NCBI RefSeq assembly: GCF_009711405.1
Contig: NZ_SMLW01000662.1
Location: 1-41,237 of the forward strand
DNA from: Fulvivirga kasyanovii
Lineage (GTDB): Bacteria; Bacteroidota; Bacteroidia; Cytophagales; Cyclobacteriaceae
DNA: 41,237 nucleotides
Reading direction: 5' to 3'
In this document: positions 23,606 through 41,237 of the stretch, one piece after another
Layout: every line of letters starts with the position of its first letter
Numbering within the stretch: the first letter of the stretch is position 1
Made by a program: the position numbers and the translations under genes
Notes under the pieces: model-generated
Databases searched by the model: none
What the model saw: the letters and a program-made list of their open reading frames with translations, nothing else
What the model was told of the DNA's origin: nothing

Positions 23606-24325
23606 ATGATAGACTATGTATGGCTGATTTGGTCTTTGATCATTCTTGCAGTATGGGGAATGATCTTTTTATTTAGAAAAGATTATAGAAAGGTGATGCT
23701 CAAAATGAGCCTCATCACTATGCCTTTTGGCCTGACAGAACCATTATTTGTTCCTCAATATTGGAATCCTCCTTCAATTTTTGATTTAGCTAAAAGCACA
23801 GGTTTTGATATTGAAAGCCTGATCTTTTCGTTTGCGATTGGGGGCATAGGGTCAGTGCTATATCAGTTGGTTTTTAAAAAAGTAACCGTTGAAATGCACC
23901 CATCAGAACGCACGCATAGACGCCATCGGATGCATCGGTATATCTTGTTTGTTCCTCCGGTAGTATTTCTCATCCTGGCTTATTTCACCAGCTTAAACCA
24001 TATTTATTGTGGCATTATAGCCATGTTTACCGGTGCAATTGCTACCTTATACTGTCGCCCTGATCTTAAAGGCAAGATATGGATCGGTGGTTTTCTATTT
24101 ACCCTGTTGTACTTTATTTATTTCGGTAGCATCTTACCATTTTTCCCCGAGTATGTGAACCTCTACTGGAACCTTGATGCTTTGACGCATATACTCATAT
24201 TGGGAGTACCCCTGGAAGAACTTCTATTTGCTTTCACCTTTGGCATGTATTGGTCAAGCCTGTTTGAGCATCTGTACTGGCAAAAATTGCAAGAACACCC
24301 TTTAAAAATGCATGTTTATGAATGA
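23606..24325 (+). CDS. Lycopene-cyclase-domain membrane protein
   Basis: The 239-residue protein has about seven membrane helices. Key parts are GLTEPLFVPQYWNPPSIFDLA, TGFDIESLIFSFAIGGIGSVLYQ and VPLEELLFAFTFGMYWSSLFEH. The acidic pair in P-x-EE and the two-repeat layout match the heterodimeric-type (CrtYcd) lycopene cyclase domain family. In true cyclases these glutamates help protonate the polyene. No carotenoid synthesis genes (phytoene synthase or desaturase) lie nearby, so the substrate may not be lycopene. A TAAGG lies directly before the ATG. The stop overlaps the NADH dehydrogenase start. Confidence 0.78.
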   Translation: MIDYVWLIWSLIILAVWGMIFLFRKDYRKVMLKMSLITMPFGLTEPLFVPQYWNPPSIFDLAKSTGFDIESLIFSFAIGGIGSVLYQLVFKKVTVEMHPSERTHRRHRMHRYILFVPPVVFLILAYFTSLNHIYCGIIAMFTGAIATLYCRPDLKGKIWIGGFLFTLLYFIYFGSILPFFPEYVNLYWNLDALTHILILGVPLEELLFAFTFGMYWSSLFEHLYWQKLQEHPLKMHVYE

Positions 24326-25646
24326 ATATTGTAATACAGATGAGATGGTTTGCTTACCGGAAACCAATATGCCCCGGCTTGTCATTATTGGAGGAGGCTT
24401 TGCGGGACTTGCTCTTGCTAAGGCATTAAAGAGAAGTAGGATACAGGTTGTGCTGGTTGATAGACATAACTTTCATCAATTCCAGCCACTATTTTATCAG
24501 GTGGCTACCAGTGGCCTGGAGCCGGATAGCATCGTATTCCCATTTCGCAAACAAATCAGTGGTAATAAAAATACAATATTCAGGTACGCCACAGTTCAGC
24601 AAATAGAAGCAAAACAAAACCGGGTATTAACCAATAAAGGTATCATTGACTATGATTTCCTGGTTATAGCCACTGGGACCAAAACCAATTTTTTTGGCTT
24701 GACCGATATTGAAAAGTGGAGCTTGGGCATGAAAAGCATTCAGGATTCCCTGAATATTCGCCATACCATGATCCAGAACCTGGAGCAGGCAGCTATCACC
24801 TGTGATGAACATGAAAAAGACATTCTCACCAATTTTATTATAGTGGGTGGAGGCCCTGCCGGTGTTGAAATGGCAGGTGCCCTTGCAGAATTCAAGAAAT
24901 ATATATTACCGGGAGATTATCCGGAATACTCCTCCGAAATAATGGATATCTATCTGCTGGAGGCAGGTGATCAATTGCTGGCATCCATGTCTGACAAAGC
25001 TTCAGAAAAGGCACTGAAATATTTGACCCGGCTGGGCGTACAGGTTATGCTTGAGGAAGCAGTAGAACATTATGATGGATCGGCTGTCTCAACAAATTCA
25101 GGAAAGAAACTCTACGCTAGTAATCTGATCTGGACTGCCGGGGTAACAGGAGATTTTCCTGAAGGTATTGGAGAAGAAAGTATTGTTCGGGGAAACAGGC
25201 TTCAAGTGAATAACACCCTGCTGGTAAAAGGATACACCAATATTTTTGCCATTGGCGATATAGCTGCAGTAGTCAGCCAAAGAACACCCAAAGGCCATCC
25301 TCAGGTGGCACAGGTGGCCATCCAACAGGGTAAATATCTGGGTGAAGTGATTAAGTACAGAATTGCGGGTAGAGAATATTCAAAACCATTTCGTTATCGG
25401 GATAAAGGGTCACTGGCCACTGTCGGTAAAAGAAGGGCGGTAGCCGATCTGGGTAAATTTCGGTTTGGTGGGTATATCGCCTGGTTGTTATGGTCGGTAG
25501 TACATCTTTTTTCCATTAGCGGTTTCCGAAATAAGCTGATGGTAGCACTGAACTGGGTGTGGAATTATTTCACCTATGACAAAGGCAATCGGCTAATCAT
25601 CCGGGAGTACAAAAACAAGGACTTAGAAAAGGAGGAGTCCAAATGA
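24312..25646 (+). CDS. ndh: Type II NADH:quinone dehydrogenase
   Basis: The 444-residue protein has the FAD motif LVIIGGGFAGLALAKAL (about 23-39), a second nucleotide motif VGGGPAGVEMAGALAEF near 178-194, and the late FAD motif IFAIGDIAA followed by PQVAQVAIQQGKYLG. The C-terminal region has the hydrophobic patch (about 375-410) that anchors NDH-2 to the membrane. It moves electrons from NADH to quinone without pumping protons and uses only flavin, no iron-sulfur clusters. The start may be ATG 24312 or 24318; both overlap the previous gene. It overlaps the nhaA start at its end (ATGA at 25643). Confidence 0.9.
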   Translation: MFMNEYCNTDEMVCLPETNMPRLVIIGGGFAGLALAKALKRSRIQVVLVDRHNFHQFQPLFYQVATSGLEPDSIVFPFRKQISGNKNTIFRYATVQQIEAKQNRVLTNKGIIDYDFLVIATGTKTNFFGLTDIEKWSLGMKSIQDSLNIRHTMIQNLEQAAITCDEHEKDILTNFIIVGGGPAGVEMAGALAEFKKYILPGDYPEYSSEIMDIYLLEAGDQLLASMSDKASEKALKYLTRLGVQVMLEEAVEHYDGSAVSTNSGKKLYASNLIWTAGVTGDFPEGIGEESIVRGNRLQVNNTLLVKGYTNIFAIGDIAAVVSQRTPKGHPQVAQVAIQQGKYLGEVIKYRIAGREYSKPFRYRDKGSLATVGKRRAVADLGKFRFGGYIAWLLWSVVHLFSISGFRNKLMVALNWVWNYFTYDKGNRLIIREYKNKDLEKEESK

Positions 25647-26971
25647 TTACCCGCCTAAACAACTCTTTGAATAATCTGGTAAAGAACCAATCAGCTTCAG
25701 GGATTGCCATTTTTCTGGCTGTACTGGTAGCCATGATCTGGGCTAATTCCCCATTCGGGGAAGTATATCAAAACTTTATTCACACTGAAATCTCGCTCTT
25801 GGTTGGGGAATTTGCTTTGTCAGAGTCACTATTACTTTGGGTAAATGATGGCTTAATGGCCATCTTCTTCCTGCAGGTAGGCCTGGAACTGAAAAGAGAG
25901 ATTATTGGAGGTAAATTGTCCTCTCCCAAAAAGGCCATCTTACCCATAGGAGCGGCTATTGGCGGCATGGTAGTTCCGGCAGCCATTTATCTTATTTTCA
26001 ACTTCAATGCTGCTACCGAGCACGGTTGGGGAATCCCAATGGCCACAGACATAGCCTTTGCCATTGGAGTGCTTTCTTTTTTTGGAGATCGTGTACCTAT
26101 CGGGCTCAAAGTATTTTTGGTGGCACTTGCCATAGTAGACGATCTCGGTGCCGTACTGATTATTGCTATTTTTTACACTTCCGGAATTTCATATATTGAT
26201 TTGCTTCACGGTGTATTATTCCTACTTGTGTTGGTAGGAGGTAATTACATTGGCGTTCGCAAAGCCTGGTTTTATGCACTCATTGGGATCGGTGGGGTTT
26301 GGTTGGCATTTTTTTTCTCCGGGGTACATCCGACCATTGCAGGCATTCTCACTGCTTTCACCATTCCCGGTAAGGTTAAGATCAAGGAAGAAGATTACTT
26401 AAAAAATCTCCAAAAACTTCATTTGCAATTCTTAGAGGCAACTCCTATTAAGGGTAACTTCATTTCAGAAAAACAACTCAGTATTCTGGAAGAGATCAAG
26501 CAAAAATCAGATGATGCTGAAACTCCCTTGCAAAAAATAGAGCATCACCTGGCACCTATTGTAGGATTTTTTATTCTGCCCTTATTTGCCCTGGTCAATA
26601 CCGGGATTCACATTCATGGAAATTTAGTAGAAATTTTAAGTCATCCCATTAGCCTGGGGATAGGTTTCGGGCTTTTGGTTGGCAAGTTTACCGGTATCTT
26701 AGGAGTAAGCTGGCTTTTGGTGAAATTTAAGCTGGCCGAGTTACAAGAAGGAATTTCCTGGAGACACCTTTCGGGAGTAGCCATGATAGCCGGAATAGGC
26801 TTTACCATGTCACTATTCATCACTGAATTGGCATTCCAAAAAGAGGAATATACATTCATTGCCAAGCTAAGTATTTTGTTTGCTTCAGTGCTTGCCGGTG
26901 TCATTGGTGCAATTATACTTTGTCTGTATGGCAGAACAGAATCTACAACTAAACCGGCAATGAACAATTGA
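25643..26971 (+). CDS. nhaA: Na+/H+ antiporter NhaA
   Basis: The 442-residue length, about twelve membrane helices and the sequence VALAIVDDLGAVLIIAIFYTS identify NhaA. The paired aspartates (Asp166 and Asp167) are the ion-binding residues equivalent to Asp163/Asp164 of E. coli. The helix FFLQVGLELKREIIGGKLS and the region MATDIAFAIGVLSFFG are also typical. It exports Na+ in exchange for protons. The extra loop around residues 245-300 is charged and probably cytoplasmic. It is coupled to ndh, and a K+ channel gene follows, so the three form an ion/energy group. Confidence 0.95.
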   Translation: MITRLNNSLNNLVKNQSASGIAIFLAVLVAMIWANSPFGEVYQNFIHTEISLLVGEFALSESLLLWVNDGLMAIFFLQVGLELKREIIGGKLSSPKKAILPIGAAIGGMVVPAAIYLIFNFNAATEHGWGIPMATDIAFAIGVLSFFGDRVPIGLKVFLVALAIVDDLGAVLIIAIFYTSGISYIDLLHGVLFLLVLVGGNYIGVRKAWFYALIGIGGVWLAFFFSGVHPTIAGILTAFTIPGKVKIKEEDYLKNLQKLHLQFLEATPIKGNFISEKQLSILEEIKQKSDDAETPLQKIEHHLAPIVGFFILPLFALVNTGIHIHGNLVEILSHPISLGIGFGLLVGKFTGILGVSWLLVKFKLAELQEGISWRHLSGVAMIAGIGFTMSLFITELAFQKEEYTFIAKLSILFASVLAGVIGAIILCLYGRTESTTKPAMNN

Positions 26972-26981: not shown

Positions 26982-27539
26982 ATGGTATACAAAATAGACT
27001 ACGATAGTTTCTTAAAACAACTGATCAAGCGCCTGAGTCCGGCTGTGATACTGGTGGCTTTGGTGGCCATCGTTTATGTCTACCTCATGCAATTTGTTGA
27101 TCATAAAATAAGCTGGGTGCCTTACCTGGTGGTTTTATTTGCCCTGATCAAAACCATATATTTTACATTTTTTACTTTCAAACAGGTAAATAAATCCATT
27201 CGCCAGTGTCATTCCTTTGGGCAATTGCTCTGGATTTTCGGGTTACTGGTACTGTTGATTATCTTCTCCTATGCAGCAGATTATAGCTGTATTGCTGCTG
27301 CCAATAAAGGCTCATTTCAGGGATTTAACACCTCGGACAACATGGGTTATCTCAGCTTTTTATTTGAGTTCTTCTATTTCAGTGTGGTAACTTTTGCGGC
27401 AATCGGTTACGGAGACATCGTACCCTTAACGTATCCTGCCAGGATATTGGTGATCATGGAGATCGCTCAAAGCTTTGTACTGATCGTATTCGGATTATCC
27501 AACATAAATAATATTCATACCAAAATTAAAACGCAATAG
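26982..27539 (+). CDS. Two-span potassium channel
   Basis: The 185-residue protein has about four hydrophobic helices. Its pore loop reads VTFAAIGYGDIVPLTYPAR, with the canonical filter (I)-G-Y-G-D at residues 141-145 before the last helix. It probably conducts K+. There is no regulatory domain. It starts 10 bases after nhaA and ends four bases before the GAPDH gene. Confidence 0.88.
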   Translation: MVYKIDYDSFLKQLIKRLSPAVILVALVAIVYVYLMQFVDHKISWVPYLVVLFALIKTIYFTFFTFKQVNKSIRQCHSFGQLLWIFGLLVLLIIFSYAADYSCIAAANKGSFQGFNTSDNMGYLSFLFEFFYFSVVTFAAIGYGDIVPLTYPARILVIMEIAQSFVLIVFGLSNINNIHTKIKTQ

Positions 27540-27543: not shown

Positions 27544-28560
27544 ATGAAAAAGAAAATAGCACTTATCGGATATGGTGTAATCGGCAAAAGAGTAGCGGAT
27601 GCTATTACCCTGCAAGAGGATATGGAATTGGCCGGAGTTTGTGATGTAATCAGTGATTGGCGCATTCAAGCAGCGGTAAGCAAAGGATACCCTATTTATG
27701 CTGCTACTCCTGAAGCTAAAAGCAACATGGAGCAGGTAGCTATTTCCCCGGCAGGCAATATGACTGACCTTTTAGATGTAGCAGATTTAGTAGTGGATTG
27801 TACCCCCAAGAAGATAGCTGCCCAAAACGTACAGACGTACAAAGAGCGAGAAATCAAATTTATCCTTCAAGGAGGTGAAAAACACGAAACCACCGGACAT
27901 TCCTTTAGCGCAGAAAACAATTATGCTTCCGCCCTAAACCGGGACAGTACCCGGGTAGTTTCGTGTAACACCACTTCAATTGTCAGGACACTTTCGGCAT
28001 TGAAAAGAGCCGGACTCTTAGAGAGTGCACGTGGCACTTTGCTTCGTAGAGCGACCGACCCCTGGGAAAGCCATCTTGGTGGTATCATGAATACCCTGGT
28101 ACCTGAAAAAGACATCCCCAGCCATCAGGGACCTGATGCGCAAAGTGTAGACCCAGAGCTGGATGTAGTTACTATGGCGGTGAAAGTTCCTCAAACCCTG
28201 AGCCATCTACATTACTGGAATGTGCGACTTACCCGACAAGCTGATAAAAAGGAGGTGATAGAGGCATTTCAGACATCTACACGAATCACGTTGATGAGCT
28301 ATAACGAAGGGTTGGTTTCCAATAATACGATCAAAGAAAGATACCTGGATATGGGACGACCCTGGGGCGATATGTATGAGGTAGCACTGTGGCAAGACAT
28401 GCTAAAAGTAGAAGGTAATGAGCTCTATTACGCCTATGTAGTGGACAACCAGGCCATTGTAATCCCGGAGACCATTGATGCGATCAGGGCATTGACCGGG
28501 ATAGAAGAAAGTGCCGAGAGATCAATTAAAAAGACAAATGAAAGTTTGGGGATCATATAA
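27544..28560 (+). CDS. Archaeal-type (type II) glyceraldehyde-3-phosphate dehydrogenase
   Basis: The 338-residue protein has a Rossmann start (IALIGYGVIGKRVADAI) and the catalytic SCNTTS with Cys141, matching Cys140 of methanogen type II GAPDH. The segments ATDPWESHLGGIMNTLVP, QGPDAQSVDPELDVVTMAVKVP and the histidines near LSHLHYWN also fit. This class catalyses oxidation of glyceraldehyde-3-phosphate with NAD(P) and phosphate. It is standard in archaea and uncommon in bacteria. Its TAA overlaps the next ATG (TAATG at 28558). Confidence 0.88.
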   Translation: MKKKIALIGYGVIGKRVADAITLQEDMELAGVCDVISDWRIQAAVSKGYPIYAATPEAKSNMEQVAISPAGNMTDLLDVADLVVDCTPKKIAAQNVQTYKEREIKFILQGGEKHETTGHSFSAENNYASALNRDSTRVVSCNTTSIVRTLSALKRAGLLESARGTLLRRATDPWESHLGGIMNTLVPEKDIPSHQGPDAQSVDPELDVVTMAVKVPQTLSHLHYWNVRLTRQADKKEVIEAFQTSTRITLMSYNEGLVSNNTIKERYLDMGRPWGDMYEVALWQDMLKVEGNELYYAYVVDNQAIVIPETIDAIRALTGIEESAERSIKKTNESLGII

Positions 28561-29882
28561 TGAGCTTGTTTGATACAGAAATAAAATCTCTCAAATCACT
28601 TAATACCTATCTTAAAAAACTAGTAGCAGGCAAGCTCTGGTTAAAGGTACTCATTGCACTTTTCTTAGGAGTGGGTTTTGGCCTTCTTTTAAGCCCACAA
28701 AATGGATGGGTGAGCAAAGCCACTGCCGATGTTTTAGGTAACTGGCTGGCCCTGCCCGGCATGCTCTTTCTTAAGCTCGTGCAAATGATCATGATCCCGT
28801 TAATCGTGGCCTCTATCATTACTGGTATCGCCAGTAATGACAAAGACAACCTGAAAAAACTGGGAGGTGGTGTTTTTCTTTATTTTGTGGCTACCACCAT
28901 TATCTCCGTGAGTATAGGAACCCTTCTTGCTACCGTTTTTAAACCGGGGAGATACCTGCATGAACAGGCAGCTGCCGAGCATGAAGCAGTACTGGCGGCA
29001 GGCGAAGAAAATGCTGAATTATCGTTTGGCATCAATGATATGCCGGGCATCATTACCGATCTGCTGCCTGAAAACCCGCTGGCCTCTATGGTAAGCGGGG
29101 AAATGTTGAGCATTGTCATCTTCACCATTATTATTGGAGTGGCAGTATTATCATTGCCAGATAATCTGCTGAAACCTGTGAAGTTATTGCTGAGTGCTGT
29201 ACAGGAAATTTGTATGACAGTAGTTAAGTGGGCCATGATTTTAGTACCCATAGCAGTTTTTGGTCTCATGGCTCAGCTTACATCCAGTGTAGGTCTAAGC
29301 TCCCTTGCCGGACTAGGTTATTACGTGATAGTAGTCTTGGCAGGTTTACTAATTTTAGTAGGCATATACCTGATGATGGTGAGTTTGTTAGGCCGCAGGA
29401 ATCCGCTAAAATTCTTGGGAAAGATCAGAGACGCTCAACTCCTGGCTTTTTCCACCACCAGTTCTGCTGCAGTAATGCCTCTTTCGTTGCAAACAGCAGA
29501 AGAGGAATTAAAAGTGGATACTGCGATCAGTAATTTTATCATCCCTATTGGGGCAACTGTCAATATGGATGGCACAGCTCTTTATCAAACCATAACCACT
29601 TTGTTCATTGCACAAGCGTACGGGCTGGAAATGAGTTTGCTTAATATTATCGTTGTGGTTATAACTATAGTTGCTGCGTCAATAGGTACACCGGCCATTC
29701 CGGGAGGAGGAGTTGTAATTCTTGCATCTGTCTTGGGCAGTGCAGGTATTCCGGCAGAAGGTATCATCATCATTATCGGTGTAGAGCGATTATTGGGAAT
29801 GTTTCGTACAGCGGTTAATGTCACCGGAGATCTGACTGCCTGTGTGGTTTTCAATCAATGGTATGGTACAGTTATGCGTTAA
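28560..29882 (+). CDS. Dicarboxylate/glutamate:cation symporter
   Basis: The 440-residue protein has the family signature AFSTTSSAAVMPLSLQTAEE (serine-rich hairpin) followed by NFIIPIGATVNMDGTALYQ, and the late GTPAIPGGGVVI with RTAVNVTGD. These define the DctA/GltP (DAACS) family, which imports C4-dicarboxylates, glutamate or aspartate with protons or Na+. About eight helices plus two hairpins are expected. An acidic loop (about 138-160) lies outside. The substrate is not settled by sequence. Confidence 0.92.
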   Translation: MSLFDTEIKSLKSLNTYLKKLVAGKLWLKVLIALFLGVGFGLLLSPQNGWVSKATADVLGNWLALPGMLFLKLVQMIMIPLIVASIITGIASNDKDNLKKLGGGVFLYFVATTIISVSIGTLLATVFKPGRYLHEQAAAEHEAVLAAGEENAELSFGINDMPGIITDLLPENPLASMVSGEMLSIVIFTIIIGVAVLSLPDNLLKPVKLLLSAVQEICMTVVKWAMILVPIAVFGLMAQLTSSVGLSSLAGLGYYVIVVLAGLLILVGIYLMMVSLLGRRNPLKFLGKIRDAQLLAFSTTSSAAVMPLSLQTAEEELKVDTAISNFIIPIGATVNMDGTALYQTITTLFIAQAYGLEMSLLNIIVVVITIVAASIGTPAIPGGGVVILASVLGSAGIPAEGIIIIIGVERLLGMFRTAVNVTGDLTACVVFNQWYGTVMR

Positions 29883-29921: not shown

Positions 29922-30479
29922 ATGATTCCGAGAGTCATGGAGGAATATGTTAATCACACAAAAGCAATTCGAGGTTACTTTCTTACCGATAGAAAACTCA
30001 TCAAATTCATCAAAAACCGTCCCGGTAATCAGGATATTGATGTCATCAAAGAGAAGGTTATGGCAGTAGCCGATCATGACAGGGTTGATTATTTCATCAT
30101 GGGCGGCTTTCATGATCATATTGAAAGGCTAAAAATTGATGAACCTCTGACCAAAGGCGACCTTTCAATTGCCATTGGTATTGCTCAAAATGGGCATAGC
30201 GGTATTGATAATGAAACCATAGCATTTGCATCCAGGTATTGTGCAGTTCATGCCCCGATGTTTTTTCCATTATGGAATAAACATTCATTGAAAGTAATTC
30301 AAAGTTATCACCACAAGACTTTATTGCCATCCGATTATTTGGAATACGGTGAGTTGGTGCGTGAGATAAAATCAAAGTTTAGCATGGCTCCTTTAAACTT
30401 CTTTGATATCAGTAAATTCTTTTGGATTTATCAGGACTACCTCATCGATTATTACCGCGAAAAGAGCTTTGACACATAA
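29922..30479 (+). CDS. Conserved protein of unknown function
   Basis: The 185-residue soluble protein has no signal peptide or membrane helix. The middle, IAFASRYCAVHAPMFFPLWN, followed by DYLEYGELVREIKSKF and FFDISKFFWIYQDYLIDYY, resembles a group of uncharacterised helical proteins that share a FASKYC-type core. Function is unknown. GGAAAG lies before the ATG, and 39 bases separate it from the symporter. It is the last gene before the regulatory gap that precedes the next operon. Confidence 0.6.
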   Translation: MIPRVMEEYVNHTKAIRGYFLTDRKLIKFIKNRPGNQDIDVIKEKVMAVADHDRVDYFIMGGFHDHIERLKIDEPLTKGDLSIAIGIAQNGHSGIDNETIAFASRYCAVHAPMFFPLWNKHSLKVIQSYHHKTLLPSDYLEYGELVREIKSKFSMAPLNFFDISKFFWIYQDYLIDYYREKSFDT

Positions 30480-30590: not shown

Positions 30591-31445
30591 ATGTCAGAAA
30601 AGACCGTTCTCATCACAAAAGCTTCAGGAGAAAGAGCCGCTTTCTCAGCAGAAAAATTAAGGCAATCGCTGGAACGAGCCGGAGCAGATTTGGCTGTAAC
30701 AGATCGGATTGTGAGCGAAATTGAGAAGCAGCTATTTGATGGAATGTCTACAAAAAAAATATACAGTCAGGCCTTTTCCATGCTCAGGAAGTACTCAAAA
30801 CCTGTCGCAGGAAGGTACAAAACCAAGCAGGCTATTTTAGAGCTGGGACCATCAGGATACCCCTTTGAAAAGTTCATTGGTGAAATTCTCAAACACCAGG
30901 GATACCGCACTAAAGTAGGGGTAATCATTCAGGGCCATTGTGTGACTCACGAAATAGATGTGGAGGCCGAAAAGGATAATAAGCACTTTATGGTAGAGTG
31001 CAAATTCCATAATCGGCAAGGTTATAAGTGCGATGTAAAAATTCCACTCTATATAAAATCCCGGTTTGAAGATGTAAAAAAGCAATGGCAGAAACGTAAA
31101 GATCATGCTACTAAGTTTCATCAGGGTTGGGTGGTGACCAATACCCGGTTCACCGAGGATGCCATTCAATATGGTAAATGTTCCGGTTTGATTCTCATAG
31201 GCTGGGATTATCCCCAACAAGGAAGTTTAAGTGAACGGATTAATTTGTCCGGTTTACATCCTATCACCTGCCTCACTACGCTTACCAAATCCGAAAAGCA
31301 ACAGTTGATTGATAAGATGGTAGTACTCTGCAAGGAGCTTTGTGACAAGCCAAAGATGCTTAATGAAATAGGAATATCTGATAAACGGATCAGAGGGATA
31401 CTTAAAGAAGGAAACGAAATTTGTTCAAGCAGGGCGGTCTATTAA
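30591..31445 (+). CDS. ATP-cone/PD-(D/E)XK nuclease fusion
   Basis: Residues about 4-90 form an ATP-cone (VLITKASGERAAFSAEKLRQSLERAGA), the regulatory nucleotide-binding module of ribonucleotide reductases and NrdR. Residues about 90-195 carry the restriction-type nuclease core, with HEIDVEA (Glu121, Asp123) and MVECKFH (Glu136, Lys138). This is the Mrr/PD-(D/E)XK pattern. A helical tail (about 235-284) follows. The fusion would place nuclease activity under ATP/dATP control. The target (DNA or RNA) is unknown. It heads the last operon, eight bases ahead of a TTG-opening frame whose ATG is at 31465. Confidence 0.8.
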   Translation: MSEKTVLITKASGERAAFSAEKLRQSLERAGADLAVTDRIVSEIEKQLFDGMSTKKIYSQAFSMLRKYSKPVAGRYKTKQAILELGPSGYPFEKFIGEILKHQGYRTKVGVIIQGHCVTHEIDVEAEKDNKHFMVECKFHNRQGYKCDVKIPLYIKSRFEDVKKQWQKRKDHATKFHQGWVVTNTRFTEDAIQYGKCSGLILIGWDYPQQGSLSERINLSGLHPITCLTTLTKSEKQQLIDKMVVLCKELCDKPKMLNEIGISDKRIRGILKEGNEICSSRAVY

Positions 31446-32835: not shown

Positions 32836-34355
32836 TGGAAGCAAAGGATACCCGCCATAACGTATTAAAATTAGTAAGACTAGGCATTGATGCACGCAAT
32901 GAATACATGGTATTTATGCGCAAGGATTGTCCGGTATGTGTGTCCGAAGGATTTGAGGCTTTAAATCGTATAAAAGTTTCAAAAGGAAATAAAACCATCG
33001 TGGCCTCACTCATCGTTTGGGACAATGAAGAACATCTGACTCATGACCAACTAAGCTTATCAGAAGCAGCCATTGATTCATTGGGAGCAAATGCTGGGGA
33101 TGAACTCACCTTGAGTCATTTGGATGCCTTGGATTCCATGAGTGATGTCCGTAAGAAAATTTATGGACACCGCTTGAACCAGGCAGCGTTTGACAGGATC
33201 ATTGGCGATATCGTCAATCGGAATTTATCCAATATTCAACTTTCAGCTTTTCTGGCTTCCAGCACAGGGAATGCATTAAATCAGGAAGAAGTGATTGCCC
33301 TGACCCGTTCCATGATTAATGTGGGTTTTAAACTGGATTGGGGTAAAGATAAGGTCTATGATAAACACTGCATAGGTGGCTTGCCCGGTAACCGAACTAC
33401 CCCACTGGTAGTGTCTATTGTTGCCGCAGCGGGGCTGACCATTCCTAAAACTTCTTCCCGTGCCATTACTTCTCCGGCTGGTACCGCTGACACCATGGAG
33501 GTAGTTACCAACGTAAATCTTACCACCGAGCAAATGAAAAAAGTGGTGGATCTAGAAGGGGGGTGCCTGGCCTGGGGCGGATCAGTACAGTTAAGTCCGG
33601 CTGATGATATACTCATCCGCGTGGAAAAAGCACTAGATATTGATAGCGAAGGGCAGATGATCGCTTCCGTGCTTTCAAAAAAGGCGGCAGCAGGTTCTAC
33701 TGATGTTGTGATTGATATTCCTGTCGGCCCAACGGCTAAAGTGCGCTCCCGGGAAGCTGCTGAGCATCTGTCAGAAAAGATGGTTGCCGTAGGCAAAGCC
33801 ATCGGACTGAATATTGATATTATATTAACCGATGGATCGCAACCTGTAGGGCGGGGCATCGGCCCTGCACTGGAGGCAAGGGATGTTTTGTCCGTCTTAA
33901 GAAATGAAGACCATGCACCTGATGACCTGCGTGAAAGAGCAGTACTACTGGCAGGCAGGTTACTTGAAATGGGAGGAAAAGTAGCCGAAGGGGCAGGCGC
34001 TCTTGAAGCTTTGAAAATTTTGAAAAGTGGAGAGGGCTACAAAAAATTTACCGCTATCTGCCAGGCACAAGGCTTTTTCAGGGAACCTGAAGTAGCCCCC
34101 CATAAGCACAAGATCAAGTCCATAACGACTGGGGTAGTTTCAGAAATTGATAATCGCAGACTGGCGAAAGTGGCTAAGCTGGCTGGTGCTCCTGAAGCGA
34201 TGACAGCCGGCATTTTGCTTCTTACGCCTTTGAATACTCAGGTGGAAGAAAACGATACCCTGTTTGAAATCCATGCTGAGTCTCACGGAGAGCTTGAGTA
34301 CGCCCTTTCTTACCTGGATACACAAAAAGAAATTATTAAAATCAAAGAGACATAA
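32835..34355 (+). CDS. Archaeal-type AMP/thymidine phosphorylase
   Basis: The 506-residue product starts at ATG 32835; the GTG just before it is less likely. It has the N-terminal extra domain of archaeal AMP phosphorylases (about 1-85). The phosphate site KHCIGGLPGNRTTPLVV lies at about 177-193, and SSRAITSPAGTADTMEVV follows at 207-225, as in the archaeal rather than the E. coli DeoA line. Such enzymes phosphorolyse AMP (giving ribose-1,5-bisphosphate and adenine) or thymidine. No ribose-1,5-bisphosphate isomerase or RuBisCO lies in the window, so its product must be used another way, perhaps with the PRPP synthetase next door. Confidence 0.88.
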   Translation: MEAKDTRHNVLKLVRLGIDARNEYMVFMRKDCPVCVSEGFEALNRIKVSKGNKTIVASLIVWDNEEHLTHDQLSLSEAAIDSLGANAGDELTLSHLDALDSMSDVRKKIYGHRLNQAAFDRIIGDIVNRNLSNIQLSAFLASSTGNALNQEEVIALTRSMINVGFKLDWGKDKVYDKHCIGGLPGNRTTPLVVSIVAAAGLTIPKTSSRAITSPAGTADTMEVVTNVNLTTEQMKKVVDLEGGCLAWGGSVQLSPADDILIRVEKALDIDSEGQMIASVLSKKAAAGSTDVVIDIPVGPTAKVRSREAAEHLSEKMVAVGKAIGLNIDIILTDGSQPVGRGIGPALEARDVLSVLRNEDHAPDDLRERAVLLAGRLLEMGGKVAEGAGALEALKILKSGEGYKKFTAICQAQGFFREPEVAPHKHKIKSITTGVVSEIDNRRLAKVAKLAGAPEAMTAGILLLTPLNTQVEENDTLFEIHAESHGELEYALSYLDTQKEIIKIKET

Positions 34356-34359
34356 AAAT

Positions 34360-35256
34360 ATGGAAATGATAGTTTTTGCCTTACCGGGCAACGAAGATCT
34401 TACTGAAAAAATAGCCGGACACCTTCAGGCTGAAAAGGGTGAGGCAACTATGCGGCAGTTTCCCGATGGTGAGAGCTATGTGCAGATACATTCTGACGTA
34501 AAAGGAAAATGCGTGGTGATGGTTTGTACCTTATATAAACCGGACGCTAAGTTACTGCCCTTATACTTTCTAAGTAAAACAGCCAAAGACCTGGGAGCTG
34601 CATGTACCTGCTTTGTGGCACCCTATCTGGCCTACATGAGGCAAGACAAACAATTTAACCCTGGAGAAGGGATCACCTCAACGTATTTTGCACAATTGAT
34701 CTCCGGATTCGCAGAAACACTTACCACCGTAGACCCGCATCTGCACCGTAGAAGCTCGTTAAGCGAAATCTATAACGTACCTAATACTATAGTGCATGCG
34801 GCATCACACATTTCAAAATGGGTGAGTGATAATATTGAAATGCCGGTATTCATCGGCCCGGATAGCGAAAGTGAGCAGTGGGTTTCTGAGGTGGCAAAAG
34901 AAGCCAATGCGCCCTTTACAGTATTGGAAAAAATACGACATGGTGACCGGGATGTAGAAGTATCCATCCCCGATGTAGCAAAATATAAAGGTCATACCCC
35001 GGTGCTGGTTGACGATATTATTTCCACTGCAAGGACTATGATTGAGACAGTGGGCCACTTAAAAAAGGCCAACATGAGACCTCCTGTGTGTGTGGGAGTT
35101 CATGCTGTGTTTGCAGAGTCGGCTTATAAAGACCTGAAAAATTCAGGCGTGCAGCAGATCGTAACGTGCAACACCATCCCTCATGAAAGCAATGCTATTG
35201 ATCTTTCTGAAACTTTGGCAATGGAGATTAAAGCGTTAATGAAGCACCATGCGTAA
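34360..35256 (+). CDS. prs: Ribose-phosphate pyrophosphokinase (PRPP synthetase)
   Basis: The frame extends further upstream, but the ATG at 34360, just after the phosphorylase stop, gives MEMIVFALPGNEDLTEKIAGHL, the normal Prs opening. The 298-residue product has FPDGESYVQI, APYLAYMRQDKQFNPGEGITS, TVDPHLHRRSSL and the PRPP-binding loop PVLVDDIISTARTMIET. The loop has Ala-Arg where most Prs have Gly-Gly. The enzyme makes PRPP and AMP from ribose-5-phosphate and ATP. Its AMP could feed the neighbouring AMP phosphorylase or PPK2. It is a shorter, divergent form; activity is likely but not certain. Confidence 0.85.
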   Translation: MEMIVFALPGNEDLTEKIAGHLQAEKGEATMRQFPDGESYVQIHSDVKGKCVVMVCTLYKPDAKLLPLYFLSKTAKDLGAACTCFVAPYLAYMRQDKQFNPGEGITSTYFAQLISGFAETLTTVDPHLHRRSSLSEIYNVPNTIVHAASHISKWVSDNIEMPVFIGPDSESEQWVSEVAKEANAPFTVLEKIRHGDRDVEVSIPDVAKYKGHTPVLVDDIISTARTMIETVGHLKKANMRPPVCVGVHAVFAESAYKDLKNSGVQQIVTCNTIPHESNAIDLSETLAMEIKALMKHHA

Positions 35257-35932
35257 TATCCTCTTCCTCATATTGATATTTCTGCAATTTACTCCCGGCA
35301 TGTCCTATGGTCAGGAAAAGGAAATGTTGATTGAGCAGATTGCTGAAAAAAAAATAGTTCGCAAAAATTTTGACAAAAATGGAAACTCACAAGGCATGCA
35401 AATCTTTCTGACCGGAGAGTTAAAGCGGGAAAGTGAAACTTATACTGTAGAAGTGTTGGTGGAGTTGTATGATGAAAATAACCAATTGGATGAAAAATAT
35501 ACCACCACTTACAAGTGTAACCCCAGAGAATTTGATGTGCTGCTCAATGTATTTCCTTTTACCGATCCGGGAGATGAAAAGATAAAAGTGGATATTGCCT
35601 CAGAAGATTTTAAGCAGTTATATGATTTACAAAGTAGCACTAAGTTGAAAGATATCCATTTGAAGATAAGTGTTGAATCGGGCGTACTCAGTTTTTTTGG
35701 TTCTAAAAGCCTGGTTACCATAAAAAACAGGCAGAGCAAAAAAGAAAATGGAAAGATAACTATTAGTAGTGATGCTGTAGTTGAAGCCTATGTGATGGGC
35801 CTAAAGATAAAGACCATCAATTACACGGTTGAAGAATACCTGACTGAGAGTTTAGTATTACAGCGTCAGAAAATCACGGAGGATGACGGAGCATATTTTA
35901 CCATGACCTATGAGCAAAATAATAAAGAGTAG
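35249..35932 (+). CDS. Exported protein of unknown function
   Basis: The 227-residue product has a signal peptide (MRNILFLILIFLQFTPGMSYG-Q) and a beta-rich mature domain with no cysteines in obvious pairs and no motif I recognise. It overlaps the prs end by eight bases and lies three bases before ppk2, so it belongs to the operon. Function is unknown; it may be the envelope partner of the copper ATPase further on. Confidence 0.6.
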   Translation: MRNILFLILIFLQFTPGMSYGQEKEMLIEQIAEKKIVRKNFDKNGNSQGMQIFLTGELKRESETYTVEVLVELYDENNQLDEKYTTTYKCNPREFDVLLNVFPFTDPGDEKIKVDIASEDFKQLYDLQSSTKLKDIHLKISVESGVLSFFGSKSLVTIKNRQSKKENGKITISSDAVVEAYVMGLKIKTINYTVEEYLTESLVLQRQKITEDDGAYFTMTYEQNNKE

Positions 35933-35935: not shown

Positions 35936-36667
35936 ATGGTAGACTTATATCATATTACCACCTTGCCGCCAGCAGAAGCCGATAAAATGGAAACAAAGAA
36001 GGCACTTAAAAAACTGCGTAAGGAGCTTTTTAAGCTACAGAATAAGTTCTATGCCGATGGCAGATACAGTATGCTTATCATCTTGCAGGGCCTTGACACC
36101 TCAGGCAAGGACGGGACCATCCGTCACGCTTTCAGTGGTATGAACCCACAAGGTATGCAGGTTACTTCTTTTAAAAAGCCTACAGCTGACGAGCTCAAAC
36201 ACGATTTTTTGTGGCGCATTTATCCCCACTTTCCTGAGAAAGGGATGATCAAGGTATTTAACCGATCCTACTATGAAGACATTTTGGTGCCAGCGACAAA
36301 CAAAAGCTTGTCAGAGAATGTGTTGGAGCATCGCATCAATTTGATTAACGAATTGGAGCATCACCTGCTCGCAAATAATACTTTGATCTTAAAGTTTTAC
36401 TTGCATATCTCAGCTGATGAGCAGGTAAAGCGTATAGAAGATCGGAAAACAAAACCACACAAACGCTGGAAATATGCCAAAGAAGATGAACTCGTACCCA
36501 ACCAATGGGATGATTATCGGGAGGTGTACCATACCATACTGAATACTTGCGACCACTTGCCCTGGCATATCATCCCTGCAGACAAGCGTTGGTATCGCAA
36601 TTATACCGCAGCGAAAATTTTAGCTGATCAACTTGAAAAACTTAACTTGGAATACCCCAACATCTAA
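35936..36667 (+). CDS. ppk2: Polyphosphate kinase 2 family protein
   Basis: The 243-residue protein has the Walker A-type motif ILQGLDTSGKDGTIRHAF (about 46-60), the Walker B-type FNRSYYEDILVPATN and the lid HKRWKYAKEDELVPNQWDDY. These are the hallmarks of PPK2, which uses polyphosphate to phosphorylate AMP, ADP or GDP. One PPK2 domain of about 230 residues fits class I or III; the class cannot be fixed by eye. With prs (which releases AMP) in the same operon, regeneration of ADP/ATP is a sensible role. Confidence 0.9.
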   Translation: MVDLYHITTLPPAEADKMETKKALKKLRKELFKLQNKFYADGRYSMLIILQGLDTSGKDGTIRHAFSGMNPQGMQVTSFKKPTADELKHDFLWRIYPHFPEKGMIKVFNRSYYEDILVPATNKSLSENVLEHRINLINELEHHLLANNTLILKFYLHISADEQVKRIEDRKTKPHKRWKYAKEDELVPNQWDDYREVYHTILNTCDHLPWHIIPADKRWYRNYTAAKILADQLEKLNLEYPNI

Positions 36668-36678: not shown

Positions 36679-38832
36679 ATGGAAAATCACAAAGGACATA
36701 ATCACGAGCACCATCATCACAGCAATACCTCCAAAGAAGAGGCACGAGATAAGAAAGAAGAGGTGAAAGATTCCTTAGCAGAAAAATCCAAACACGGTCA
36801 TGAGAAGGCGATGGATCATTCATCTCATGGAGGACATGGTGACCATTCCGGTCATAACCCCGGACATGGAGAAATGGGCCATGACCATCACAAAATGATG
36901 ATTGAGGATTTTAAAAAGCGTTTTTGGATATCCCTTGTTTTGACGATTCCGATTTTGGTCTTTTCTCCCATGATCCAGGGCTTTTTTGGCTATGAATGGC
37001 TGCTGCCGGGCAATGCGTACATTTTGTTCGGGCTTTCTACCATCGTTTATTTTTATGGGGGCTGGCCTTTTCTGAAAGGGTTAAAGGATGAGCTGAAGGA
37101 GGGTGCCCCGGGCATGATGACTTTAATTACTATGGCCATCAGTGTAGCCTATTTTTATAGTTCCGCAACAGTTTTCGGCCTTGAAGGGGAGGATTTCTTC
37201 TGGGAACTGGCCACCCTAATTGATATCATGCTACTGGGCCACTGGCTGGAAATGAAGTCGGTTCTGGGAGCTTCAAAAGCGCTGCAATTGTTGGTAAGTA
37301 TGATGCCTTCTGAGGCCCACAGGGTCAAAGGCGATGCTGTAGAAGATGTGAAGCTGGAAGACCTGCAAAAAGGAGATATTATCCTGATCAAACCTGGTGA
37401 AAAAGTTCCGGCTGATGGTATTATCGTAGAGGGGGAAAGCTATCTGAACGAGTCTATGCTGACCGGGGAATCCAAACCTGTCAAAAAAGGTATGGAGAAT
37501 AAAGTAATCGGAGGTTCGCTTAATGGCAATGGTTCACTCAAAGTAAAGGTGGAGCATACCGGCAAAGACAGCTACCTTAATAAGGTAATTACGCTGGTAC
37601 AAGAGGCGCAAAAGTCTAAGTCAAAAATGCAAAATTTGTCAGACCGTGCCGCCAAGTGGCTTACCTATATCGCATTAGCGATAGGCTTTGGGACGCTGGC
37701 TACCTGGTTGTTTTTAGGTTTTCCATTTGTCTATGCCTTGGAGAGAATGGTGACGGTGATGGTTATTGCCTGCCCTCATGCATTAGGTTTGGCCATACCG
37801 TTAGTAGTAGCCATATCCACAGCAGTTTCTGCTCAGAATGGATTATTGATACGCAATAGAACGGCATTTGAGGAATCCAGAAAGATTTCGGCCCTTGTTT
37901 TTGATAAGACCGGAACACTAACTAAAGGTGATTTTGGTGTTACCCGTGTAGAGGCGGTAGATCAGCAATTTGAACCAGATGAATTACTGAGGCTTTCCAG
38001 TGCATTAGAGCAAAGTTCGGAGCATCCTATTGCCGTTGGCATCATTAAAAAAGTCAAAGAGAAAGACATTGCGGTTCCCAAGCCTGAAAACTTCAATGCC
38101 ATTACCGGTAAAGGGGTTGAAGCAAAAGTGGAAGGGAAAGATGTGAAAGTAGTGAGCCCCGGCTATCTGAAAGATGAGCATATTTCCATACCTGATGGTG
38201 CCTACAGCAGTGCAGCCGAGACAGTCGTTTTTGTTCTCGTGGATAATAAACTGGCCGGGTACATCGCCCTGGCAGATGAGATCAGACCGGAAAGTGCCGA
38301 GGCAATTAAAGTGTTCAAAAACAACAACATCAAAGTGATGATGGCCACCGGTGACAATGAAACAGTCGCCAAAGCAGTAAGTGAAGAACTAGGCCTAGAC
38401 GGCTACTATTCAGAAGTACTGCCACATCAAAAAGTGGAAATAGTAAAAGAGCTTCAGTCTAAGGGCGAGTTTGTCGCCATGACCGGTGATGGTGTGAACG
38501 ATGCGCCTGCTCTGGCACAAGCCAATGTGGGTATTGCGGTAGGCTCAGGAACCGATGTAGCAGCCGAAACAGCCGACATAATCTTGGTAAACAGCAACCC
38601 GCAGGATATAGCCAACCTGATTTTATTTGGGAAGGCCACTTACAATAAAATGATTCAAAACCTGATATGGGCTACCGGTTATAACACTGTTGCAATTCCT
38701 TTGGCAGCAGGGGTGCTTTACACATCTGGTTTCGTTTTAGGTCCGGCAGTTGGTGCGGTTTTTATGAGTTTGAGTACGATCATAGTGGCCATCAATGCAC
38801 AGCTACTGAAGAAGAAAATCGGTAACAAATAA
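36679..38832 (+). CDS. copB: CPH-type copper P1B ATPase
   Basis: The 717-residue protein starts with a His-rich tail (about 1-75, with HNHEHHHH and SHGGHGDHSGH) instead of a Cys HMA domain. The membrane ion site is Cys-Pro-His (residues 365-367) in MVIACPHALGLAIPL. This marks the CopB-like P1B-3 group, which exports copper and silver. The phosphorylation site DKTGTLTKG starts at Asp409, the HP motif is SSEHPIAVG, and TGDGVNDAPALAQANVGIAVGSGTD follows near 602. It pumps copper out of the cytoplasm using ATP. Its stop overlaps the MFS start (TAATG). Confidence 0.95.
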   Translation: MENHKGHNHEHHHHSNTSKEEARDKKEEVKDSLAEKSKHGHEKAMDHSSHGGHGDHSGHNPGHGEMGHDHHKMMIEDFKKRFWISLVLTIPILVFSPMIQGFFGYEWLLPGNAYILFGLSTIVYFYGGWPFLKGLKDELKEGAPGMMTLITMAISVAYFYSSATVFGLEGEDFFWELATLIDIMLLGHWLEMKSVLGASKALQLLVSMMPSEAHRVKGDAVEDVKLEDLQKGDIILIKPGEKVPADGIIVEGESYLNESMLTGESKPVKKGMENKVIGGSLNGNGSLKVKVEHTGKDSYLNKVITLVQEAQKSKSKMQNLSDRAAKWLTYIALAIGFGTLATWLFLGFPFVYALERMVTVMVIACPHALGLAIPLVVAISTAVSAQNGLLIRNRTAFEESRKISALVFDKTGTLTKGDFGVTRVEAVDQQFEPDELLRLSSALEQSSEHPIAVGIIKKVKEKDIAVPKPENFNAITGKGVEAKVEGKDVKVVSPGYLKDEHISIPDGAYSSAAETVVFVLVDNKLAGYIALADEIRPESAEAIKVFKNNNIKVMMATGDNETVAKAVSEELGLDGYYSEVLPHQKVEIVKELQSKGEFVAMTGDGVNDAPALAQANVGIAVGSGTDVAAETADIILVNSNPQDIANLILFGKATYNKMIQNLIWATGYNTVAIPLAAGVLYTSGFVLGPAVGAVFMSLSTIIVAINAQLLKKKIGNK

Positions 38833-40067
38833 TGGGTAATCGCGAAATCCTTGGCAGGATCATCATTATCCTGCTAAGTATTTTTGTAGTTATGAGTGGG
38901 TATGGTGTATTGCTTCCCGTTTTGCCCTACTATACGGAAAGGCTTGCATTAAAATCCGGCATTGTAGCTGAAGAGGATATCAACTATCACATTGGAATTC
39001 TCACCAGCATTTACCCGTTTTTTCAACTTCTTTTTGCTGTCATCTGGGGCAAATTGTCTGACCGTTTCGGTCGTAAGGCACTGATCATTATGGGTTTGTC
39101 AGGCTTTGTCGTTATGCAGGTTTTAACCGGGCTGTCTACTTCTTTGGCCATGCTTTATGTCGCCCGTATTCTAGGAGGTATATTCTCGTCTTCGGTTATA
39201 CCCGTGGGCAATGCTTTTCTTAGCGACCTTACCAACAGCATGCAGCGCAGAAAAGTACTGGCCTGGTCGGGGGTGGCAGTAAGTACGGGAGTGATTACCG
39301 GGCCTATGATTGGTGGTTACCTGGCCCAAACCAATTTACATTTAAATACCAGAATGGGGCATTTGCTGTTAGATAGATTTAGTATCCCGTTTCTTGCAGT
39401 CGCCCTTTTAGGAACCATTATTTTGTTGCTGGCAATCGGATGGCTCAAAAACCCCAAAGCACAAAATCTTAACATCATAGAAGCAGGCCAAAAGCCAGAG
39501 TCAAATGTGAAACGTGATTTTGTTCTACTATTGTTTCTCTCATTAATTCTTCAACTGGCCGTAACCTTGTTTGAGACGGTGTTTTCTGTTTATGCCAAAG
39601 ACATTCTCTTGTTTGACACTTCCCAGGTAGGACTTGGGTTTATGCTTTGTGGCCTGGTTATGGCCGTTTTACAGCCTTTATTTGCCAATGTAGATGCAAA
39701 AACTATCTCTGTAAACACACAACTTTTTATCGGTTTTGCATTGGCTGCTTTTGCTATGATTGTTTTTTCTTTTTGGACATACAATATCTATGTATATACC
39801 ATGATTGTATTTTTTGCGATCGGAGGTGCAATGGTCACCCCCAACCTAATTACCATGATTTCTTTGGTGGATAAAAACCATACCGGGGCGAATCTGTCTT
39901 TACAAACATCAGTGAATAGTATTGGTCAGGTATTGGGACCGATGTTAGGCATATGGTTATACACAATCGGTAGCTCATGGCCTTATCCGGTGATTGGCAC
40001 GGTGTTATCGCTTGTAGCCGTTCTCATAATTCCGAACTTAAGATTTAAAAGCCAAAAAATGACATAA
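38832..40067 (+). CDS. MFS transporter
   Basis: The 411-residue protein has about twelve membrane helices and the MFS motif GKLSDRFGRKALIIMG after helix 2, with VARILGGIFSSSVIPVGNAFLSDL as helix 4. The substrate is unknown; many relatives are drug or metabolite exporters. An additional cytoplasmic stretch lies between the halves (near 210-230). It starts one base into the copper ATPase stop. Confidence 0.88.
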   Translation: MGNREILGRIIIILLSIFVVMSGYGVLLPVLPYYTERLALKSGIVAEEDINYHIGILTSIYPFFQLLFAVIWGKLSDRFGRKALIIMGLSGFVVMQVLTGLSTSLAMLYVARILGGIFSSSVIPVGNAFLSDLTNSMQRRKVLAWSGVAVSTGVITGPMIGGYLAQTNLHLNTRMGHLLLDRFSIPFLAVALLGTIILLLAIGWLKNPKAQNLNIIEAGQKPESNVKRDFVLLLFLSLILQLAVTLFETVFSVYAKDILLFDTSQVGLGFMLCGLVMAVLQPLFANVDAKTISVNTQLFIGFALAAFAMIVFSFWTYNIYVYTMIVFFAIGGAMVTPNLITMISLVDKNHTGANLSLQTSVNSIGQVLGPMLGIWLYTIGSSWPYPVIGTVLSLVAVLIIPNLRFKSQKMT

Positions 40068-40088: not shown

Positions 40089-40190
40089 ATGAGATGCTAT
40101 GAAATGAGCATGTTTGGGAAACACCAACCAGCGATGAATGCTGATGATGTGAATTCCATGTGGCCACTAAAAAAAATTACATACACATGA
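40089..40190 (+). CDS. Possible 33-residue ORF coupled to the aldolase gene
   Basis: A short frame reads [20 protein letters not shown] and continues to a TGA that overlaps the aldolase ATG (ATGA at 40187). A leader peptide that couples translation is possible, but so short a frame can arise by chance. The remaining bases of the gap hold nothing else. Confidence 0.25.
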
Positions 40191-41237
40191 AAAAAATAAA
40201 TGAATATTTAGGAGATCAGGCAGAATACCTTCTGCAACATACTTGTAAAACGATTGATAGAACAAGACTTACTTTACCTGGTTCAGATTATCTGGATAAT
40301 GTTTTTGTCAATAGCAACAGAAATCCACAAGTACTCAATGCACTTTCACGCCTGTATAACAGTGGCAATCTCTCTGGAACAGGCTACCTATCCATCCTTC
40401 CGGTGGATCAGGGTATTGAACATTCAGCCGGAAGTGCTTTTGGCCCTAATCCCGACTACTTTGACCCCGAGAATATTGTACAACTTGGTTTGGAAGCAGG
40501 TTGTAACGGTGTAGCCTCTACCTTTGGCGTATTAGGGCTTACCGCAAGAAAATATGCACACAAGATTCCATACATCGTAAAAATCAATCATAACGAGTTA
40601 CTGACTTATCCGAACAAGCATGACCAGATCTTATTTGGGACGGTGAAGGACGCCTGGAACATGGGAGCTTGTGCGATTGGTGCAACTATCTATTTTGGGT
40701 CACCCGAATCAAACAGGCAAATACGTGAAATCTCAGATGCTTTCACTTATGCCCATGAATTGGGAATGGCTACCATTTTATGGTGTTACACCCGAAATGA
40801 ATCCTTTAAAACAAAAGACAACGACTATCACACAGCTGCAGACCTTACCGGACAGGCCAACCATCTGGGAGTGACCATTCAGGCAGATATCATCAAACAA
40901 AAACTGCCGGATACAAATGGTGGTTTCAGAGACCTGAAATTTGGTAAGACCTCTGAAGAAATGTACGGCAACTATATTTCCGATCATCCCATTGATATGT
41001 GCCGCTATCAAGTAGCCAACTGTTATATGGGCAAGATAGGCTTGATCAATTCGGGAGGAGCTTCCTCTGGAGAGTCGGACTATGCTGAAGCAGTAAAAAC
41101 AGCCGTGATTAATAAAAGAGCAGGTGGAATGGGTTTGATTTCGGGAAGAAAAGCATTCCAAAGACCAATGAAAGAAGGTGTTGAATTGCTCAACCTGATC
41201 CAGCAAGTGTACCTGGATGAAGAAATTACAATTGCTT
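40187..41237 (+). CDS. fbaB: Class I fructose-bisphosphate aldolase (cut at right edge)
   Basis: The frame runs from ATG 40187 through 350 codons to the edge, where the final T is probably the first base of the stop, since the family ends YLD-EEITIA as here. Typical segments are [32 protein letters not shown] with the Schiff-base lysine near residue 237, and [19 protein letters not shown]. It is the FbaB/DhnA class, common in archaea and used by some bacteria during gluconeogenesis. Unlike class II aldolases it needs no metal. The reaction splits or forms fructose-1,6-bisphosphate. Confidence 0.93.

Follow-up and report, generated by a model that had tools for sequence, protein, structure and literature searches.

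The stretch of DNA analysed here (the window, 41,237 nucleotides) is the entire contig NZ_SMLW01000662.1 (C564 in our numbering) of the 680-contig, 7.17 Mb genome of Fulvivirga kasyanovii, and it carries a string of central-metabolic genes together with genes for copper defence. From position 23245 to the contig end every annotated gene is on the + strand; neighbouring genes are separated by 119 bp or less, and several overlap. The 5' part of this string runs from a DUF5676 gene through a lycopene-cyclase-domain protein, an NDH-2-type NADH dehydrogenase, NhaA, an ion channel and a type II glyceraldehyde-3-phosphate dehydrogenase (GAPDH) to an SDF symporter; the 3' part continues with a protein without family, an ATP-cone/Mrr protein, a metallo-beta-lactamase (MBL) beta-CASP protein, an AMP-phosphorylase-like enzyme, a phosphoribosyl pyrophosphate (PRPP) synthetase, a secreted-looking protein without assigned function, PPK2, CopB, a major facilitator superfamily (MFS) transporter and the aldolase FbaB. 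The features are given below with the evidence for each; "related loci" are the best 80 of at least 547 confirmed matches, taken with 10-kb flanks, and include two near-copies of the window (L010 and L011).

2382-2951, + strand: AraC-type regulator (HTH_18) with an N-terminal metal-binding-like motif, NMVCPRC (MxCxxC), seen in the sequence
3354-5678, + strand: multicopper oxidase 1, CopA/PcoA-like (Cu-oxidase Pfam domains; TIGR01480 419 bits, under the 479 cut-off)
9633-11300, + strand: multicopper oxidase 2, CueO-like (top NCBIfam model CueO, 262 bits, under the 525 cut-off)
16291-17148, + strand: second AraC-type regulator with the NMVCPRC motif, seen in the sequence
22593-23081, + strand: Met-rich, secreted-looking protein by its sequence; similar Met-rich proteins occur in related loci
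23245-23595, + strand: DUF5676 small membrane protein, a frequent companion (family match)
24312-25646, + strand: NDH-2-type NADH:quinone oxidoreductase (PF07992 and PF22366 over cut-off)
25643-26971, + strand: NhaA Na+/H+ antiporter (TIGR00773 411 bits, cut-off 254)
26982-27539, + strand: ion channel-like protein (PF07885)
27544-28560, + strand: type II (archaeal-type) GAPDH (NF003251, TIGR01546)
28560-29882, + strand: glutamate/dicarboxylate symporter, SDF family (PF00375)
29922-30479, + strand: protein without family (no Pfam match)
30591-31445, + strand: ATP-cone and Mrr-type nuclease domain protein (PF03477, PF04471, PF22357; in 57/80 related loci)
31453-32835, + strand: MBL beta-CASP nuclease, near RNase TTHA0252 and Cas14/aCPSF1 (family and structure matches)
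32832-34355, + strand: AMP-phosphorylase-like enzyme of the "thymidine phosphorylase family" (TP; NF003338 653 bits)
34360-35256, + strand: divergent PRPP synthetase (NF005537 392 bits; the mechanical reading-frame start is 34264, 34360 being likelier)
35249-35932, + strand: secreted-looking protein without assigned function, by its sequence (in 25/80 related loci)
35936-36667, + strand: PPK2, nearest to polyphosphate:AMP phosphotransferases (family and structure matches)
36679-38832, + strand: CopB-type P-type ATPase, predicted to export copper (CPH motif, His-rich N-terminus, TIGR01511)
38832-40067, + strand: MFS efflux transporter (Tet-type models nearest, under the cut-offs of the families shown)
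40187-41236, + strand: class I-type fructose-bisphosphate aldolase FbaB, truncated by the contig end (PF01791 192 bits)

No mobility genes were seen among the window open reading frames scanned, a few small frames lying outside the scan, and profile scans gave no family assignment for the proteins at 29922-30479 and 35249-35932. A first-pass annotation of this stretch had named NDH-2, the class I aldolase, type II GAPDH, PPK2 and the copper ATPase, all of which are borne out by family and structure matches. It had also counted two multicopper oxidases within 24312-41237; the two oxidases are real and lie outside that segment, at 3354-5678 and 9633-11300.

The ATPase scores 622 bits against the TIGR01511 cut-off of 397, and the CPH motif, the His-rich N-terminus and the Cu-type TM7/TM8 motifs, which we take as a criterion for CopB, are all present. 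Homologues of the AraC proteins occur in 56/80 related loci and keep MxCxxC in 54 of the 56, and the motif suggests that these regulators may place the block under copper control. The Met-rich protein at 22593-23081 resembles a copper-binding periplasmic protein.

The type II GAPDH scores far over both curated cut-offs (NF003251, 447 vs 185 bits; TIGR01546, 330 vs 233 bits) and matches four PDB entries, presumably all archaeal by their codes. The catalytic-type Cys141 is kept in all 47 aligned sequences, and the classical CxxxC pair, which is C150/C154 in the genome's own GapA, is absent, the +4 residue being G, S or A in 47/47. The second Cys is missing across the whole type II family, and its absence is no evidence of copper selection. 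Of 395 Bacteroidota genomes, 18 have a match that exceeds the cut-off, Fulvivirga kasyanovii among them, and in a tree of the 47 sequences the grouping of all Bacteroidota members in one clade is rejected (32 rows vs 14, p-AU 9.7e-8), indicating that the gene moved between phyla. FbaB belongs to the DeoC/LacD-fold family PF01791; its top PDB match is a class I fructose-bisphosphate aldolase, and both lysines of the 1ojx KIK stretch, one of which is the catalytic lysine, are Lys in the window protein. The NDH-2-like protein carries the PF22366 NDH2_C domain (46.8 bits vs a cut-off of 27.7), and its best solved relative is a non-electrogenic NADH:quinone reductase (237.5 bits).

The MBL-TP-PRPP synthetase block (31453-35256), which the first-pass annotation did not contain, is copper-linked as well. 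Top structure for the TP enzyme is 4ga5 (338 bits), which we take to be the T. kodakarensis AMP phosphorylase, against 94 bits for the thymidine phosphorylase 1azy, presumably that of E. coli; it aligns with 4ga5 from residue 47 and with E. coli-type thymidine phosphorylases only from about residue 105. It stays under the cut-off of the AMP phosphorylase equivalog TIGR03327 (472 vs 535 bits), and the sister family NF003338/TIGR02645 suits it better. For the beta-CASP protein the structure match is RNase TTHA0252; the type VII Cas14 model gives 365 bits, far under its cut-off of 800 (CRISPR arrays were not searched for). The neighbouring ATP-cone protein (30591-31445) is fused to an Mrr-type nuclease domain and is possibly a nuclease that senses the ATP level. 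A reading of the nuclease pair as a defence system was dropped, the matches being weak only. The PRPP synthetase is 25-27% identical to the genome's standard-type copy; it has six cysteines, keeps the active-site-region His and adds a second one, and DPHxH is found in 25 of 27 long matches. PPK2 has 5lc9 as its best PDB match (214 bits) and scores over the TIGR03709 subfamily cut-off and under the equivalog cut-offs for both the AMP and the ADP transferase; its nearest relatives, polyphosphate:AMP phosphotransferases, are in our understanding class III.

These enzymes are extra copies. The genome encodes one classical GapA, two class II aldolases and the complex I 49-kDa subunit, besides a second FbaB on contig C316 and a second island-type PRPP synthetase that is 66% identical to the window copy. 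Two further, divergent PRPP synthetase matches (26-27% identity) are present, one of them with the DLHADQIQGFF stretch that we take as the mark of a standard Prs. Because such standard copies exist the set is accessory, as the first-pass annotation had supposed, and the alternative that the island enzymes are the housekeeping set, which that annotation had named as a refutation of its reading, is ruled out by the standard GapA, class II aldolases, complex I 49-kDa gene and standard-type Prs. The second FbaB lies between TolC-like and CusB-like genes in a string with a CusA/CzcA-type resistance-nodulation-division (RND) pump (C316, stretch L153: 4257-14136), and its place in an efflux string is an independent link between aldolase and copper. 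The second island-type PRPP synthetase is accompanied on contig C452 by another AMP-phosphorylase-like gene and another ATP-cone gene. Beside this ATP-cone-TP-PRPP cluster (C452, stretch L152: 3997-12205) stands a run of eleven open reading frames of 142-149 aa that look alike when their starts ("VPC... GF.. EEFR") are compared by eye.

The copper linkage was counted against controls in neighbourhoods of 8.5 kb, with thresholds chosen by the analyst. Among 16 type II GAPDH loci sampled across the phylum (whole genes from 16 other genomes, the window and the split gene of genome G297 being left out), 7 have a motif-checked copper ATPase, against 0 of 40 control loci, giving a Fisher p of 4.9e-5 that is nominal in that the loci share ancestry; any heavy-metal-type P-type ATPase is found in 10/16 vs 0/40, and a CusA match in 1 of the 40 controls. 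A broader count that takes all stretches, both of G297 included and some of them short at contig ends, finds an ATPase in 11/18 target stretches vs 0/20 controls. The 40 controls comprise 20 classical GapA loci, hand-picked from weak NF003251 matches, three of them from genomes that also have type II GAPDH and all 20 with a GapA homologue (41-64% identity to the genome's own GapA), and 20 of 201 ordinary FbaB loci, also hand-picked; two of these span just 11.5 and 5.5 kb, and the selection does not include the FbaB copies that G198 and G084 have within type II GAPDH loci. None of the 20 ordinary FbaB loci holds a copper gene of the panel. The PRPP synthetase gene lies within 23 of the 80 related loci. 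The 10-kb flanks cut many loci short of PRPP or CopB, which leaves 10 of the 23 uninformative; of the 13 informative loci, which have at least 1.5 kb beyond the gene, 12 show a CopB homologue close to it (at least 300 bits, taken there without motif check), and for 10 of these 12 the distance is no more than 2 kb. The DUF5676 companion occurs in 8/18 target stretches vs 0/20 controls. The same counts hold for a P-II-like protein (L105-L107, L109-L111, L113 and L116, vs 0/20), which adjoins the copper ATPase in 5 of its 8 stretches by their listed order.

Related sets are carried by plasmids of five phyla, and similar enzyme kinds recur in Bacteroidota, Pseudomonadota, Actinomycetota, Deinococcota and Chlamydiota. 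Among 72,556 plasmid records, 37 match type II GAPDH; in 35 of the 37 the match spans 80% or more of the query, and 17 are typed as conjugative. A TP-family gene is also present on at least 19 of the 37, a figure drawn from 60 listed of 115 TP records that means the same record rather than neighbouring genes and includes closely related plasmids. In stretches picked for taxonomic spread and thus not at random (15 GAPDH plasmids from the 37 records, 8 TP plasmids from the 115), a heavy-metal-type match is found in 9 of the 15 GAPDH loci and any strict copper gene in 4, and a copper ATPase with checked motifs is present in 5 of the 8 TP stretches, a sixth having a heavy-metal ATPase. The copper ATPase is within 10 kb of TP in L. 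adelaidensis, Leisingera, L. fallonii and Sphingobium TA15, and at about 17 kb in Pontibacter; "plasmid 9" of Legionella adelaidensis carries ribosomal genes and may not be a true plasmid. A metal-sensitive regulator, a copper ATPase and an RND pump stand divergent from MBL-TP-PRPP-phosphoketolase in Legionella fallonii, the PRPP gene is followed by the copper ATPase in Leisingera, and Sphingobium TA15 has cueR, the ATPase and copCD. By search, no P-type ATPase or oxidase was found in six background stretches of such plasmids, taken at arbitrary places of the analyst's choice; one of the six holds an annotated, cut-off CusA/CzcA gene. That the set is joint, mobile and copper-linked is well supported. 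One near-copy outside the genome is L010 (PBYL01000347.1), a contig binned as the alphaproteobacterium Thalassovita, with a 98% identical type II GAPDH and the same gene order, which mis-binning or a very recent transfer would explain.

The companion genes bear on what unites the set. Of the 80 related loci, 67 have FbaB within 8.5 kb, 60 NDH-2 and 52 universal stress protein (Usp) genes; an ATP-dependent phosphofructokinase (PFK) occurs in 42 and a D-lactate-dehydrogenase-like enzyme in 33, and the plasmids add, in varying combination, glycogen phosphorylase, phosphoglucomutase, PEP synthase, enolase, phosphoketolase, acetate kinase, pyruvate:ferredoxin oxidoreductase (PFOR) and arginine deiminase. 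These companions amount to glycolysis and ATP without respiration and not to a list of metal-free enzymes, the denominator that the first-pass annotation had proposed. Classical GAPDH has no metal either, and its weakness towards copper probably lies in its thiols; Mg is required by PRPP synthetase, PPK2 and PFK and Zn by the beta-CASP protein, and class I FbaB is ordinary in Bacteroidota; "metal-free" was rejected on these grounds. A better common denominator is the replacement of copper targets (GapA, Prs) combined with ATP without respiration. What the first-pass annotation observed is thus confirmed and its interpretation, a substitute metabolism for metal stress, is partly supported: the accessory status and a copper association above controls stand, and the metal-free wording falls.

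Two of the enzymes that the island duplicates in divergent versions are those shown to be Cu(I) targets in Staphylococcus aureus. In the excerpts available of the two studies, GapA is bound and inhibited by copper (PMC6350627), Prs activity falls 7-fold in vitro at 2 uM Cu(I), and prs overexpression improves growth in copper, prs expression setting copper sensitivity (PMC10249872). The aldolase fda is also up under copper in rich medium; these excerpts concern changes in the cell's own enzymes and describe no mobile replacements (PMC6350627, PMC10249872). It is proposed, with about an even chance of being right, that the window carries a mobile copper-tolerance island that combines efflux and oxidation with copper-linked target replacement and ATP without respiration. 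The pumps and oxidases (CopB and the multicopper oxidases; in relatives often a Cus RND pump or CopA) would exclude copper, and the accessory central metabolism would sustain the cell when Cu(I) still gets into the cytosol. Type II GAPDH would replace the Cu(I)-inhibited GapA, and the divergent PRPP synthetase the Cu(I)-inhibited Prs, supplied through nucleotide recycling by the beta-CASP nuclease and the AMP-phosphorylase-like enzyme; FbaB would bypass the class II aldolases and NDH-2 the Fe-S-rich complex I. The route would run from RNA to nucleotides and ribose phosphates, and on to PRPP or glycolysis. ATP without respiration would be restored by PPK2 and, in relatives, come from glycogen phosphorylase, PFK, phosphoketolase, acetate kinase, D-lactate-dehydrogenase-like enzymes or arginine deiminase. 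The proposal presumes that the set would be jointly induced by copper and that the island enzymes are probably more copper-tolerant than the standard ones.

Several observations weigh against this proposal. The reactive cysteine is retained in type II GAPDH, and because cysteines are present and the His is kept, the PRPP synthetase shows no obvious way of evading Cu(I). FbaB, present in 201 of 390 sampled Bacteroidota genomes, is an ordinary enzyme there and no exotic substitute; class I FbaB alone was accordingly discarded as a sign of copper adaptation, 20/20 ordinary loci also lacking a panel copper gene. A motif-checked copper ATPase lies within 8.5 kb in only 3 of the 15 plasmid GAPDH loci, the heavy-metal ATPase of the Variovorax TP stretch shows the copper motifs incompletely, and in Sphingobium xenophagum TP-PRPP stands among Usp genes and mgtA with no copper genes. 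The plasmid row of the chlamydial Criblamydia consists of CusA, another cation ATPase, phosphoketolase, glgP, ATP-cone, MBL, TP, PRPP and acetate kinase, and the CopA/CopB probes left its ATPase unmatched at 200 bits. Extra gapA in wild-type S. aureus did not raise copper tolerance (PMC6350627). The most important counterpoint is that low oxygen induces Bradyrhizobium genes with the same names, MBL, PRPP and TP.

That response leads to the chief rival, an energy module for low oxygen or failing respiration that would provide fermentation and substrate-level phosphorylation under oxygen shortage; we consider it possible, if clearly doubtful. In Bradyrhizobium diazoefficiens at 0.5% O2, induction (protein log2 fold change; transcript fold change) reaches 2.9 and 15.4 for the MBL protein bll3115, 4.4 and 7.7 for the PRPP synthetase bll3116 and 2.1 and 5.1 for the thymidine phosphorylase family protein bll3117, none of the three being marked as a direct FixK2 target, and phosphoketolase, 1-PFK-type kinase, CusA/CzcA and DUF302 genes appear in the same microoxia table (PMC6515984). 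The likeness is thus of same-named genes with consecutive locus tags, induced together with phosphoketolase, CusA and DUF302; oxygen was the trigger studied, and orthology to the island is by name and order only (PMC6515984). The plasmid relatives fit as well, with phosphoketolase, acetate kinase, PFOR and arginine deiminase, and on the Agrobacterium plasmid also nosZ. On this account copper is no trigger, and the ATPases are there as Cu(I) is worse without oxygen or as copper oxidases have to be served. The local regulators, however, are metal-motif AraC proteins, and the window ATPase is of the CPH/CopB type and not of the CPC type that we would expect for oxidase assembly. FNR/CRP-like boxes, sought with simple patterns against base shuffles only, are likewise no more frequent than expected: the 80 related Bacteroidota loci have 7 where 8.7 are expected, and 29 of a second pattern where 44 are expected, and the window has one box of each pattern, with 0.32 and 0.96 expected; FNR-type control was looked for in these loci as box enrichment and not found. 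Copper toxicity is greater anaerobically (PMC9040851), and because of this the copper and the low-oxygen readings may describe a single habitat from two angles.

An improbable alternative is a starvation or energy-stress island for polyphosphate, glycogen and RNA recycling that shares its carriers with metal resistance without functional coupling, both functions being useful in sediments and polluted soil. The Usp genes in 52/80 loci within 8.5 kb and the PPK2, glycogen and ATP-cone nuclease genes of the sets agree with it. It is harder to reconcile with the distance between the PRPP gene and CopB, about 1-3 kb in 12/13 informative Bacteroidota loci, and with separate type II GAPDH clades that have differing copper genes (CopB; CueR with a CPC ATPase; a multicopper oxidase). 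Chance accretion, by which a metal island picked up extra metabolic genes without benefit, would suit the differing gene content among relatives and is very improbable, because much of the neighbourhood recurs in the 80 related loci with controls free of copper genes bar one CusA, the same enzyme kinds recur across five phyla and the catalytic-type Cys is kept in 47/47 type II GAPDH sequences.

The proposed copper-tolerance island shares CopB, the oxidases, the metal-type AraC proteins and the plasmid relatives with known copper-resistance islands and plasmids (copA/copB, multicopper oxidase, cus), and differs from them in the central-metabolism block within the gene string; to our knowledge, classic descriptions of such islands comprise efflux, oxidation and binding only. 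No description of the combination of copper efflux with a backup metabolism was found in an open-access library, judged for the most part from listings. The TP enzyme, nearest to 4ga5, recalls the archaeal AMP phosphorylase pathway of Thermococcus, but no ribose-1,5-bisphosphate isomerase or RuBisCO is among the families matched in the window. The logic is that of target-replacement drug resistance, of which extra dihydrofolate reductases are an example: a mobile, less sensitive second enzyme is added, except that here the agent would be a metal and the insensitivity is presumed.

We tentatively suggest, at somewhat less than an even chance, that metal resistance may follow another principle in addition to efflux, horizontally moving target replacement: a plasmid or island would bring copper-tolerant versions of GAPDH, PRPP synthetase, aldolase and NADH dehydrogenase, together with a respiration-free ATP supply and a copper-sensing regulator, and variants of this would occur in at least five phyla. 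Even under the low-oxygen alternative, a transferable backup glycolysis tied to copper efflux across phyla is noteworthy. If the proposal is true, mobile copper resistance would include a metabolic bypass and metal-resistance plasmids would be read differently; the island enzymes would offer a direct test of the real cytosolic copper targets in nature, and the unexplained plasmid genes annotated as "thymidine phosphorylase family", "MBL fold", "type II GAPDH" and "ribose-phosphate pyrophosphokinase" would gain a role.

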